DNA from: a virus
Virus record (IMG/VR): IMGVR_UViG_3300025137_000007
Span: 1-36,304 of that record
DNA: 36,304 nt
Strand: one strand, 5' to 3'
Every line of letters begins with the position of its first letter. Positions within the stretch are counted from its first letter, which is position 1. Shown in pieces: positions 3,444-13,174 of this stretch. A program made the position numbers and the translations under genes. Under the pieces are notes generated by a model. The model was not told where the DNA came from, did no database searches, and worked only from the letters and a program-made list of their open reading frames with translations.

Positions 3444-4067
3444 TTATTGTAATGCCTTTGCTTTCATTTTTAAAGTTGAATCACCTACTCTTGCTCTTTG
3501 ATCGGCGATTTCCAAATCTTTAACTAACTTTTGATAAAGACTTGCCCAAACACTAATTCTAGCATCATCAACAAGATAAGGAGCCGATTGCAATAAAGTA
3601 GCATATAAGTAAATATCTGGACTACTATTGATAAGCCAATTAGTTGTATTAGTTGCTGATAGACTTGGTATCTTACTATAGTAAGTAATTTCTCCTGTTA
3701 AGGTTCCACTATCTGGAATTGGTAATACTTCCAACTCTTGACCCACTATTGTGTAAAATTTTGGTGTTCCACCTGATGTATAAGTTCTTCTTAATTTATC
3801 AAGTTGTTCATTTGTTATAAATTCTAAAGTTACAACAGGATTTGCTTCAACGACAAAATCAACTGTTTGTAACCAATCGGCTGGAACAGCACTATACTGA
3901 GAATCTATAGTCGCTGTTGCTCTTTTAATCATTTTTCTATTTCTAACTTCTTTATTTAACTGAGCTTCAGCTAAAGTAATAAAATCTGGTATAACATTTG
4001 TTAAATCAGTTCTATTAAGCCAATCTGCTATACTATCTTTTAATTCTGCATAATTACCTAAAGCCAT
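3444..4067 (-). CDS. Head-tail adaptor protein (SU10 adaptor-like)
   Basis: The 207-residue product has an N-terminal helical part (YAELKDSIADWLNRTDL..IPDFITLAEAQLNKEVRNR). A middle beta part follows (ATIDSQYSAVPADWLQ, then VTLEFITNEQLDKLR), and then a helical C-terminus. This order is characteristic of the SU10-type adaptor, which joins the portal ring to the tail of podoviruses. The start overlaps the stop of 4067-4396 by one base, showing translational coupling. The companion major capsid protein is also SU10-type, which supports the call. Confidence 0.75.
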   Translation of the reverse strand: MALGNYAELKDSIADWLNRTDLTNVIPDFITLAEAQLNKEVRNRKMIKRATATIDSQYSAVPADWLQTVDFVVEANPVVTLEFITNEQLDKLRRTYTSGGTPKFYTIVGQELEVLPIPDSGTLTGEITYYSKIPSLSATNTTNWLINSSPDIYLYATLLQSAPYLVDDARISVWASLYQKLVKDLEIADQRARVGDSTLKMKAKALQ

Positions 4068-10120: not shown

Positions 10121-10128
10121 AATGTACT

Positions 10129-10285
10129 TGCAATCATGCAATCCTTATAAGTAATTTTTTAATATGTTTTTCTATTTGCTATGATGCAATCTCTTAAAGT
10201 GTTGATTTAATTGATTTAATTTTAAGTTATGCAATCAGTTGCAATCATGCAATCAGTTGCAATCATGTTAATAATTAATGCAATC
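10129..10285 (+). repeat. TGCAATC iteron array (eight direct copies)
   Basis: TGCAATC occurs in the same orientation at 10129, 10137, 10185, 10230, 10240, 10248, 10258 and 10279. The central four form two exact tandem copies of an 18-bp unit (10230-10247 and 10248-10265). Related TTGCAAT and inverted ATTGCATTGCA lie at 10044-10050 and 10086-10096. The array fills the divergent gap between terS and ardC. Such iterons typically bind a replication initiator, partition protein or regulator; which one is not visible here. This gap (10024-10391) holds no gene. Confidence 0.85.
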
Positions 10286-10371: not shown

Positions 10372-10391
10372 ATTAATTTTGGAGAAACATT

Positions 10392-11462
10392 ATGAGTAAA
10401 AATAAAATAACATTAAAAAAAGGCATGACCAGAAAAGAGAGAGATGATCAATTTTCTACCTTCATTACTAATCAAATACTAGAGATGATGAAGCAGGAAA
10501 AAGGTTCATCATCTCATTGGTCAAAAAAATGGAAATTCAGCGAGGGTTTACCTTATAGAGTTTCAACAGCTAACAAAGAAACATATAAAGGATTTAATAT
10601 TATGAATCTTTCTCATGCTAAGCTAAGCAATAATTATAATTCTAATGCTTGGGGAACTTCTAAAGCATGGAAAAAACTAGGATTCAAATTAGCTGAAGAT
10701 CAACATTGGTCTTTAAATTCTGAAACAGTTGTTTTTTCTTCAGCAAAAAAAGTTGCTAAAAAAGACAACGAAGGAAATATTATAAAAGATTCACAAGGAA
10801 ATGAGCTTTTCTTTTCGAATTGGTTTCATACTGTTTCCGCTGTTTATAATGCCTCTCAAATGGTTAATATAGAAACAGGACAACGAGCTGATCAAGATGA
10901 TAATTACAGAATAATTCCAATAGAAAAAAACGATCAATTCAAGCAGGATCAATTTTCTAAATTTGAGAATTTTGCCAATAATTATCTTAATAATCAAGAG
11001 TTAGAAGTTAGATCAGGCGGAAATAGAGCCTTTTATAATATATCTCAAGATTTTATTGGAATGCCTTCTAAAGATAATTTCCAAAAGATTAACGATAGAG
11101 AAAAAGAGGAAAATTATTACTCTACTTTATTTCATGAGATTGGACATTCAACTGGCAATCCTACCAGATTAAATAGAAAATTTGGCAATAGATTTGGAGA
11201 TAATAATTATGCCTTTGAAGAGCTAATCGCCGAACTTACAAGCGTTCTAATTGGTGCGGAGACTGGATTAGAATTAACTCCAGCTCTTAATCATGCTTGT
11301 TATTTAAACAGCTGGCTTGAAGCTCTATCACCATTAAAAGGCGATACCAAATATGTATGGAAAGCTTTAAACAAGGCGACTCAAGCTACCAGATTCATAA
11401 CGGATTCCGTAGAAGCTCAAGAGAATAAACAAGAGAGGCACATATTTAAAAAATCAGCTTAA
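10392..11462 (+). CDS. ardC: ArdC-type antirestriction protein with zinc peptidase domain
   Basis: The 356-residue protein has two parts. Residues about 20-160 match the ArdC N-terminal ssDNA-binding domain (for example LPYRVSTANKETYKGFNIMNL, then WGTSKAWKKLGFKL). Residues about 235-340 form a zincin-type peptidase domain with H248-E-I-G-H252 and a downstream EELIAEL segment expected to give the third metal ligand. ArdC proteins of plasmids protect incoming DNA from restriction. The leader is TTTGGAGAAACATT. It is the first gene of the rightward accessory operon, so it is probably made early to shield the genome. The stop codon is part of stem I of a hammerhead ribozyme. Confidence 0.88.
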   Translation: MSKNKITLKKGMTRKERDDQFSTFITNQILEMMKQEKGSSSHWSKKWKFSEGLPYRVSTANKETYKGFNIMNLSHAKLSNNYNSNAWGTSKAWKKLGFKLAEDQHWSLNSETVVFSSAKKVAKKDNEGNIIKDSQGNELFFSNWFHTVSAVYNASQMVNIETGQRADQDDNYRIIPIEKNDQFKQDQFSKFENFANNYLNNQELEVRSGGNRAFYNISQDFIGMPSKDNFQKINDREKEENYYSTLFHEIGHSTGNPTRLNRKFGNRFGDNNYAFEELIAELTSVLIGAETGLELTPALNHACYLNSWLEALSPLKGDTKYVWKALNKATQATRFITDSVEAQENKQERHIFKKSA

Positions 11463-11519
11463 CTGATGATCGGTAAATCCGTGAAATACAGGGCCCCAAT
11501 ATCGCCCTGTATATTAAGC
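11457..11519 (+). ncRNA. Hammerhead ribozyme, type I architecture
   Basis: All core elements are present in order. Stem I is GCUUAA (11457-11462) with UUAAGC (11514-11519), 6 bp. CUGAUGA is at 11463-11469. Stem II is CGG/CCG (11471-11473, 11479-11481) with a five-base loop and a U-U mismatch at its base. GAA is at 11483-11485. Stem III (11486-11494 with 11504-11512) is 9 bp with A15.1-U16.1. The cleavage nucleotide A is at 11513. Predicted cleavage lies between 11513 and 11514 after AUA. Weak points are the U-U at the base of stem II, the short stem II and the less common AUA triplet. The ardC stop codon forms part of stem I. Confidence 0.82.
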
Positions 11520-11552
11520 AATCAAGCTTATACAACAAAAAGGAGAAACATT

Positions 11553-11699
11553 ATGAATGATGCAATTTTCATAAGTTTAATAATAAGTCTAATGTTCGCC
11601 GGAGTTTCAGCATTGGCATATTGGATGGCTCTACCAACTTTGGAGCAATTCGACAATAAAGAGAACTTCTATAAATCACTAACAAAGGAGGATTTTTAA
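11553..11699 (+). CDS. Small single-pass membrane protein (48 aa)
   Basis: The start was chosen at 11553 because AAGGAGAAACATT precedes this ATG; longer versions of the frame start inside the ribozyme and have no ribosome site. The 48-residue product is MNDAIFISLIISLMFAGVSALAYWMALPTL followed by a charged tail (EQFDNKENFYKSLTKEDF). It has one N-terminal membrane helix (about residues 4-27). It leads the three-gene group between the two hammerhead-type elements, and its last codons contain the AGGAGG-like site of the next gene. Function is unknown. Confidence 0.7.
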   Translation: MNDAIFISLIISLMFAGVSALAYWMALPTLEQFDNKENFYKSLTKEDF

Positions 11700-11700
11700 G

Positions 11701-12105
11701 ATGGGTAATAGAGCGGTAATAACTATTAAAGATAAATATATTGCCAAAGAAGATTGGCCCTCAATTTATTTACATTGGAATGGTGGATATGACACGGTTA
11801 AACCCATGTTAGATGTTGCCAAAGAATATGACATTAGATGTGAGAGTCATTATGGAATAGCCAGATTGGCTCAGATGTTCGGCAATTATTTTGGCGGTAC
11901 TCTTAGCGTTGGTGTTGGTCCATATAGTAGGCAAGACCTTAACAATGGCGACAATGGAGTTTATATAATAGGCGATGATTGGGAAATTATTGAAAGAGAA
12001 TATGCCGATAGACCCGAACAATTAAATCACGATTATTACAAAATGATTGAATCTATAAAAGAGATTAACGATTCTATATTTATTAAAACTAAGGGAGAAA
12101 AATAA
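11701..12105 (+). CDS. Conserved mobile-element protein, MGNRAVI family
   Basis: The 134-residue product starts MGNRAVITIKDK and contains YLHWNGGYDTVKPML, then YGIARLAQMFGNYFGGTLSVGVG and NGDNGVYIIGDDWEI. These blocks are those of a conserved but uncharacterised protein that I recall from plasmids and phages, often near antirestriction genes. No catalytic motif is evident. AAAGGAGGATTTTTAAG just upstream is a very strong ribosome site, and the stop overlaps the next ATG (TAATG). Association with ArdC suggests a part in establishment or anti-defence, but that is inference. Confidence 0.7.
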   Translation: MGNRAVITIKDKYIAKEDWPSIYLHWNGGYDTVKPMLDVAKEYDIRCESHYGIARLAQMFGNYFGGTLSVGVGPYSRQDLNNGDNGVYIIGDDWEIIEREYADRPEQLNHDYYKMIESIKEINDSIFIKTKGEK

Positions 12106-12545
12106 TGAAAATAATAGATGCCGGACATTATAAGTATAAAGGGTATGAAATTTGTGATGCCTTTGTTAGTAAGAACCATGATGGCTCAGATGCTATGCTT
12201 TATCATGAATATGATGGGATAAAATCTCATGATGATATACAAAAGCTAGTTAATTATTGGCAAGGTCGCTGGTATATTAGATGCAATCCTGAAAATAATG
12301 ATAAATTCGATTTTGAAACTAAAGAATATATCGAAATTTACCCTAATACTTATGGTAATCATAGACTTTATTTTGATGATAATGGAAAGATTGCTATGTC
12401 TGATATAAGATTTTATCCTACTTTAAAAGCGATCAAATTAGAAATTGATCATCTTCATGAGTGCGATAAAAACCAATTTATTGAAAATCATATTAATAAA
12501 TTAACCAAATTTGGATTTGTATCAGGCGAAGAAAAATTAGTCTAA
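12105..12545 (+). CDS. Hypothetical protein (146 aa) ending in a hammerhead-like element
   Basis: This 146-residue soluble protein is coupled to the preceding gene by a one-base overlap and has GGGAGAAA as ribosome site. It is rich in aromatic and acidic residues (ARG/ASP-rich motifs include YKGYEICDAFVSKNHDGSDAM and VNYWQGRWYIRC). I do not recognise a family. The repeated MLYHEYDGIKSHDD and YYDD-like strands suggest a small alpha/beta domain. Its stop codon is embedded in stem I of the second hammerhead-like structure. Confidence 0.6.
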   Translation: MKIIDAGHYKYKGYEICDAFVSKNHDGSDAMLYHEYDGIKSHDDIQKLVNYWQGRWYIRCNPENNDKFDFETKEYIEIYPNTYGNHRLYFDDNGKIAMSDIRFYPTLKAIKLEIDHLHECDKNQFIENHINKLTKFGFVSGEEKLV

Positions 12546-12597
12546 CTGATGAAGATTAATTCTAAGACTAGGGGACTTATTTTCCCTAGTCTTAGGC
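12540..12597 (+). ncRNA. Hammerhead-like element with altered core (AAG in place of GAA)
   Basis: Geometry matches the upstream ribozyme. Stem I is GUCUAA (12540-12545) with UUAGGC (12592-12597), 6 bp including one G-U. CUGAUGA is at 12546-12552. Stem II is AGA/UCU with a five-base loop (12553-12563). Stem III is 12567-12575 with 12582-12590, A15.1-U16.1. The cleavage nucleotide C is at 12591, giving the classic GUC triplet. The triplet 12564-12566 is AAG where GAA is required, which should abolish normal catalysis. An alternative perfect hairpin of 12-14 bp (12562-12595) would compete. It is either a decayed ribozyme, a variant, or a stable RNA end. Confidence 0.55.
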
Positions 12598-12635
12598 AAT
12601 AAAGCTTAACTATTGTAATCTTGAATATAATAAAT

Positions 12636-12664: not shown

Positions 12665-12688
12665 GTAATTAATTTTAGGAGAAACATT

Positions 12689-13174
12689 ATGAATATTAGT
12701 TTAAGAAAAAGAAAAGCAGTAATAAAAAAACTTATAAAAGACCTTGAAAATTTTACAGAATTTTTTATGAAGTCAGATATACAATTATATAAGGATAGAC
12801 CTGGCGATGATGCAGAAGATAAGGCATTTAATCTTAGATCAAGAGAGAGAGCCAAAAAAAATAAGCTTGTTATAAAAGAGAATGGCGAATTTGATTCCGA
12901 TATGCTTACTTATAATAAATTATATAATTTTGATATTGTTAATGATGATGAGATTATTCAAGCTTTTAAAAATCGAGAATGTTTCTCATTAAAACTTGAA
13001 GGCAGTTCTATTAAAGTTTTTATTAATTCAGGCATTGAAGATTATTTGAATGATGAAATGGGTATTGAATCTTATAAAAATAAATTTGAAAATATCTTAG
13101 ATAAGTATGACTATGAGCTGGAAGATTATCAAACTTATTTAATATTAGGTAAAAGAGGTGATTATTATGCTTAA
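12689..13174 (+). CDS. Hypothetical acidic helical protein (161 aa)
   Basis: The start follows TTTTAGGAGAAACATT, the leader shared with ardC and the membrane-protein gene. The 161-residue product begins with a basic helix (SLRKRKAVIKKLIKDLENFTEFFM) and continues with a charged, largely acidic sequence ending FENILDKYDYELEDYQTYLILGKRGDYYA. No motif or family was recognised. The stop (GCTTAA) is followed by a short GGGCCCCAAT stretch that looks like the edges of the upstream ribozyme with the middle deleted. Confidence 0.6.
   Translation: MNISLRKRKAVIKKLIKDLENFTEFFMKSDIQLYKDRPGDDAEDKAFNLRSRERAKKNKLVIKENGEFDSDMLTYNKLYNFDIVNDDEIIQAFKNRECFSLKLEGSSIKVFINSGIEDYLNDEMGIESYKNKFENILDKYDYELEDYQTYLILGKRGDYYA

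Follow-up and report, generated by a model that had tools for sequence, protein, structure and literature searches.

A type I hammerhead ribozyme predicted across the ardC stop codon of a tailed phage, and its relatives at phage gene ends

The end of an ardC-like antirestriction gene in a marine tailed phage coincides with what is, judged from sequence and predicted fold, a complete type I hammerhead ribozyme, which spans positions 11457–11519 and overlaps the UAA stop codon of the gene. Its structure, family, placement and coupled core change are established here by comparison with related sequences. The element belongs to a large phage subfamily of type I hammerheads and would most probably, by cutting itself co-transcriptionally after nucleotide A17, split the ardC mRNA from that of the downstream genes. 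By the same comparisons, the arrangement at ardC exemplifies a general design in which the ribozyme sits where the upstream gene stops, just before the next ribosome site; this amounts to a placement rule for a large, regular set of phage hammerheads. As far as we have searched, the stop-codon geometry, the subfamily consensus and the coupling of a U10.1·U11.1 mismatch to A17 are new.

The hammerhead at the ardC stop codon

The window, which is the whole of an IMG/VR virus record (IMGVR_UViG_3300025137_000007; 36,304 nt), is assigned to a tailed phage by matches to portal, scaffold, major head protein, terminase and primase/helicase. Its rightward accessory block contains ardC, a GNAT-type gene and a serine recombinase, and distant blastn of the 10.3–12.75 kb region against isolate phages gave no match. 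The ardC-like gene (10392–11462, + strand; phrog_7245) encodes a 356-residue product comprising MPTase-PolyVal and ArdcN domains (Pfam PF18818, 3e-36, and PF08401, 9e-13). Downstream on the same strand, a Shine-Dalgarno-like AGGAGA and a 48-residue open reading frame (ORF) occupy 11541–11699, with a would-be ATG start at 11553, 39 nt past the predicted cut. The ribosome-site/start sequence GGAGAAACATTATG is identical before three accessory-block genes (10381–10394, 11542–11555 and 12678–12691). Its total match count was reached in 0 of 100 shuffles, and a search for it in viral contigs was generic, with no lead among the matches listed. Repeated TTGCAATCATGCAATC units at 10128–10264, upstream of ardC, may constitute a regulatory or recombination site.

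Three helices were delineated on the + strand by a structure scanner, which demands the core and all three helices, and by a covariance model; stem I is open-ended, and stems II and III are closed by loops. Stem I pairs GCUUAA (11457–11462) with UUAAGC (11514–11519), and the ardC stop codon (11460–11462) forms the final three bases of its 5′ strand. The type I core, CUGANGA followed by GAAA with A15.1–U16.1, is present at 11463–11469 (CUGAUGA, C3–A9), 11483–11486 (GAA, G12–A14, at 11483–11485) and 11512. Between the two core strands, 11470–11482 holds a 3-bp stem II (CGG/CCG) capped by the pentaloop UAAAU (11474–11478), which is of the UNANU type; in place of the G10.1–C11.1 closing pair there is a U11470·U11482 mismatch. 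Stem III (11486–11512 with its loop) consists of A15.1–U16.1 plus 8 bp formed by strands 11486–11494 and 11504–11512, with U16.1 at 11512. The cleavage triplet AUA at 11511–11513 satisfies the NUH rule, with A17 at 11513 and the cut predicted by homology between 11513 and 11514. An A at 11456 directly precedes stem I and AA at 11520–11521 directly follows it. These flanking residues and the UNANU loop are conserved in the family, and the window copy, which has all of them, may form a tertiary contact between stems I and II. The earlier note had laid out the hammerhead elements in this order over this interval with the UAA inside stem I, and both its coordinates and its anatomy hold. Its further claim, that every conserved core element is present, stands for CUGAUGA, GAA, the stems, A15.1–U16.1 and A17 but overlooked the U·U that replaces G–C at 10.1/11.1, as it also overlooked the coupling of that mismatch to A17 and a degenerate second copy downstream.

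A covariance model built on 56 relatives, from which the window copy and L001 (a contig with a 99% identical ArdC protein) were left out, finds the window copy at 57.2 bits (E = 2.4e-11). The scanner identified 11457–11519 as the sole element in the window, and it found 0 matches in Markov-randomised copies of all loci, with 1 in a later, larger set. As an isolated 64-mer, the sequence folds as a hammerhead (z = −2.9). The Rfam search suggested in the earlier note returned no hammerhead match to the window copy at either the gathering cut-off or E 10, and RAGATH-1-hammerhead (RF03152) gave none at E up to 10. Rfam also fails to detect canonical relatives in related loci, and in L250 and L256 together only one match lies above the gathering score against 20 scanner elements; the negative result is therefore no refutation, the search being insensitive for this subfamily. 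It could be cited, together with the strength of stem III as a hairpin in its own right, for a chance arrangement or an ordinary terminator or stabiliser hairpin. No U-run follows that hairpin in the window, however, and the E-value of 2e-11 against an independent family model, the copies with compensatory changes and the near absence of matches in randomised sequence leave this explanation extremely improbable.

The second copy (12538–12599, + strand; cmsearch 36.4 bits, E = 2e-6) lies over the TAA stop (12543–12545) of the ORF at 12105–12545. Its 10.1/11.1 pair is missing and its core GAA has become AAG. Loss of G12 should abolish hammerhead cleavage, and this copy is predicted to be inactive on the basis of that core change; fold prediction favors two plain hairpins. 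Its broken state indicates that elements of this lineage can decay.

Relatives in phage genomes and their placement

Hammerheads of types I, II and III were reported in 2011 to cluster in prophage genomes and to flank single genes including ardA, around which Agrobacterium carries a triple array; the tandem phage copies that surround ardA cut themselves both in vitro and in E. coli, and a role in mRNA processing was proposed (Perreault et al., PMC3088659). The text of that paper has no mention of a stop codon, and its main text none of A17, C17 or NUH. Like the hammerheads around ardA, the window ribozyme adjoins a phage antirestriction gene, and it has the U10.1–U11.1 mismatch that the same paper notes in nature; unlike the ardA array, it is associated with ardC, encloses the stop in stem I and couples its U·U to A17. 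A 2017 review lists the role of hammerheads in phages as open (PMC6155905). The earlier note took a hammerhead built into the stop codon of an antirestriction gene to be undescribed, a reading correct in kind but too singular, since stops lie in or beside hundreds of related phage hammerheads and ardA-flanking examples were already published (PMC3088659). The catalytic core and three-helix topology are common to the window copy and the Rfam families RF00163 (Hammerhead_1) and RF00008 (Hammerhead_3), from which the phage subfamily differs by a fixed 6-bp stem I, the UNANU loop II and the A...AA flanks. RF03152 resembles it in open stem I, GUC and similar stem lengths, and its matches in L256 reach 42 bits, below the cut-off of 56.3, but the model has an additional upstream hairpin.

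Sequence patterns with and without a built-in stop codon each retrieved at least 120 stretches from IMG/VR, lower bounds drawn from samples that are not random; the pattern without the stop codon retrieved only 5 from 85,000 prokaryote genomes. A set of 210 distinct elements, from loci fetched mainly through the stop-codon pattern, has in common the 6-bp stem I and the UNANU loop II, with an A before stem I in 94% and the two A residues after it in 85% and 81%. Standard pairs fill 97.4% of pair cells in the 56-member alignment (62.1% when shuffled), 14 of its 16 pairs vary on both sides and RNAalifold recovers the same stems; such pairing statistics lean on the scanner, which demands pairing, whereas the pass rates of pattern sites and control patterns given below do not. 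Phages related by portal protein carry canonical copies, up to five per contig.

Placement was assessed on 149 elements found without requiring a stop codon, using mechanical ORF calls. An upstream ORF of at least 50 codons had its stop within −15 to +12 of the core in 83% (1–15% at shifted positions), and the next start followed 10–45 nt past the cut in 56% (2–15% at shifted positions). The stop may be a UAA at −3, within stem I, a UGA at +1 that lies in the core (C-UGA), or a codon at +11 in loop II, so that all three reading frames are served. We define the subfamily by a 6-bp stem I, a GNNY-UNANU-RNNC stem-loop II, the flanking A and AA, an upstream stop at −15 to +12 and a start soon after the cut; the window copy has its stop at −3 and its start at the distance given above, and departs solely in the U·U that replaces the first G–C of stem II. 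The genes that end at family hammerheads are mostly small and mostly of unknown function. A link to one gene type was rejected, as PHROG matches among 120 genes with such a ribozyme at their end were few and diverse. In one fetched stretch each (25 kb together), L256 contains eleven and L250 nine hammerheads, nearly one per gene. An additional core variant, in which one extra U separates A9 from a 4-bp stem II, occurs rarely (L300:9873, L305:4331, L331:8542 and 9039, and L389:3131), in each case with C17.

The same covariance model detects members in Pelagibacter phages HTVC019P, HTVC131P, HTVC022P, HTVC304P and Jormungand, in Methylophilales phage MEP301 and in Flavobacterium elemo phages (elemoA), at 50.6–60.1 bits; the isolate-phage records that we examined carry no ribozyme annotation. 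In MEP301, the stop of gp02 lies inside loop II. Six isolate-phage elements compared base by base have G10.1–C11.1, unlike the U·U of the window. Two neighbouring ORFs of Jormungand (L528:2821–3688), each annotated as ArdA, share an accessory block with its hammerhead.

L001 carries the same hammerhead as the window and, directly before ardC (3469–3537), a second U·U copy with the same core, whose stems II and III differ from those of the first but still pair. The window lacks this copy, and the accessory segment adjoining ardC thus differs between the two. With ardC in L001 flanked by two copies of identical stem I, a pair of hammerheads could excise the RNA of one gene, with its ends then rejoined through compatible stem I strands to yield a circular RNA. 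Across the family, cross-copy stem I pairing is possible for 54% of adjacent elements, with a median intervening segment of 574 nt, as opposed to 13–16% between contigs. Stem II is likewise more alike within contigs (18% versus 5%), however, so common descent may suffice for the shared stem I. Perreault et al. sought spliced or circular products and found none (PMC3088659), and the window's second copy is defective, with none present before ardC. We therefore regard circle formation as very unlikely and favor the separation of transcripts by self-cleavage.

The U10.1·U11.1 mismatch and nucleotide A17

The window copy departs from the commonest hammerhead core at two places, the 10.1/11.1 pair and nucleotide 17. 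An IMG/VR pattern with U fixed at 10.1 and 11.1 and A or C allowed at 17 was searched to exhaustion and yielded 75 stretches. Of its distinct sites, 40 of 59 fold. A control pattern that placed other bases at 10.1/11.1 gave 1 real element among 39 sites, and such alternatives were set aside. Among 41 distinct U·U elements, which have 22 different stem I sequences, A17 occurs in 40 and C17 in 1. Of the 185 non-anchor G–C elements, 153 carry C17 and 32 carry A17 (Fisher p = 2e-23 versus U·U), although C17 may be overstated here since their contigs were chosen largely for a GUC element. Comparison within contigs that contain both types mostly avoids this overstatement, and the A:C ratio at position 17 is 15:0 for U·U and 8:16 for G–C (p = 2.5e-5). 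Stems I and III of L383 (U·U, GUA) are identical to those of L234 (G–C, GUC). L371 (U·U, GUA) equals the G–C, GUA element of HTVC019P outside stem II. Short-query blastn found no U·U elements in isolate phages.

G10.1 is part of the classical Mg2+ site. We consider the chances about even that the U·U elements, the window copy among them, represent a second natural hammerhead active site, in which U·U replaces G10.1–C11.1 only with A17 and the two positions switch as a unit, also between near-identical ribozymes, through a direct structural or metal-binding link in the catalytic centre that alters rate or ion dependence. The coupling amounts to a double-mutant series supplied by nature for a textbook ribozyme, and the joint loss of G10.1 and change of the cleavage base offers a clean probe of hammerhead mechanism. 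No description of it was found in the open-access literature, subscription papers and supplementary files lying outside the search.

The two core departures, the broken sister copy 1.1 kb downstream and the competing folds described below could instead indicate a decaying relic, an ancestral hammerhead that now cuts barely or never and whose stem III hairpin is kept as a 3′ stabiliser of the mRNA. The remaining core positions are all intact, however, and the U·U and A17 core is kept in 40 distinct elements with compensatory variation in the stems. Natural U10.1–U11.1 mismatches have been noted before and are the best tolerated mispair at 10.1/11.1, with the most activity of any (PMC3088659). 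Recurrence in 41 distinct relatives and this known compatibility with activity mean that the U·U is not disqualifying, and a relic is unlikely.

Predicted processing of the ardC transcript

Within its natural 121-nt context, the element has a minimum-energy fold other than the hammerhead and stem I has a probability of about 0, in a secondary-structure model without tertiary contacts or ribosomes. The competing hairpins AUCAG/CUGAU and UAAGC/GCUUA are preferred. The former, AUCAG(CUUAA)CUGAU at 11453–11467, is a perfect 5-bp hairpin with the stop codon in its loop that competes with the ribozyme core. Across the family, the median stem I probability in the same kind of model is 0.22 in context versus 0.98 alone, and the context fold disfavors stem I (probability <0.05) in about 30% of sampled members.

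Competition between terminating ribosomes and folding of the putative ribozyme at the ardC stop is plausible. The dominance of the 5-bp competitor (11453–11457/11463–11467) in the context fold, and the recurrence of stop codons at this place across the family, would fit a translation-coupled switch, in which the hairpin hides the core until a ribosome at the ardC stop melts it and cleavage reports completed ardC translation. The competitor is, however, no family feature, as base −8 is C in only 22% of members, and a weaker form of it occurs in the sister copy of L001; we find such a switch unlikely.

On the preferred reading of self-cleavage during transcription, RNA polymerised past the end of ardC would fold into the three-helix hammerhead and cut itself after A17 (11513). 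The ardC mRNA would then end in a 2′,3′-cyclic phosphate behind the stem III hairpin, and the downstream mRNA would begin with a 5′-OH at UUAAGC. This new end could refold into a short 5′ hairpin, UAAGC/GCUUA (11515–11530), ahead of the next start codon, which would hinder re-ligation. Family elements would thereby act as gene-by-gene punctuation of phage transcripts, each at one gene's stop and just before the next ribosome-binding site, presumably to the benefit of the phage. Some members belong to phages grown on hosts that are themselves in culture (HTVC019P on Ca. P. ubique HTCC1062, MEP301 and the elemo phages), which makes mRNA processing during infection directly testable. The sequence AATMAAGCTTA follows both window copies, at 11520–11530 and 12598–12608, and at the former site its pairing with the 3′ strand of stem I could produce the 5′ hairpin on the cut product.
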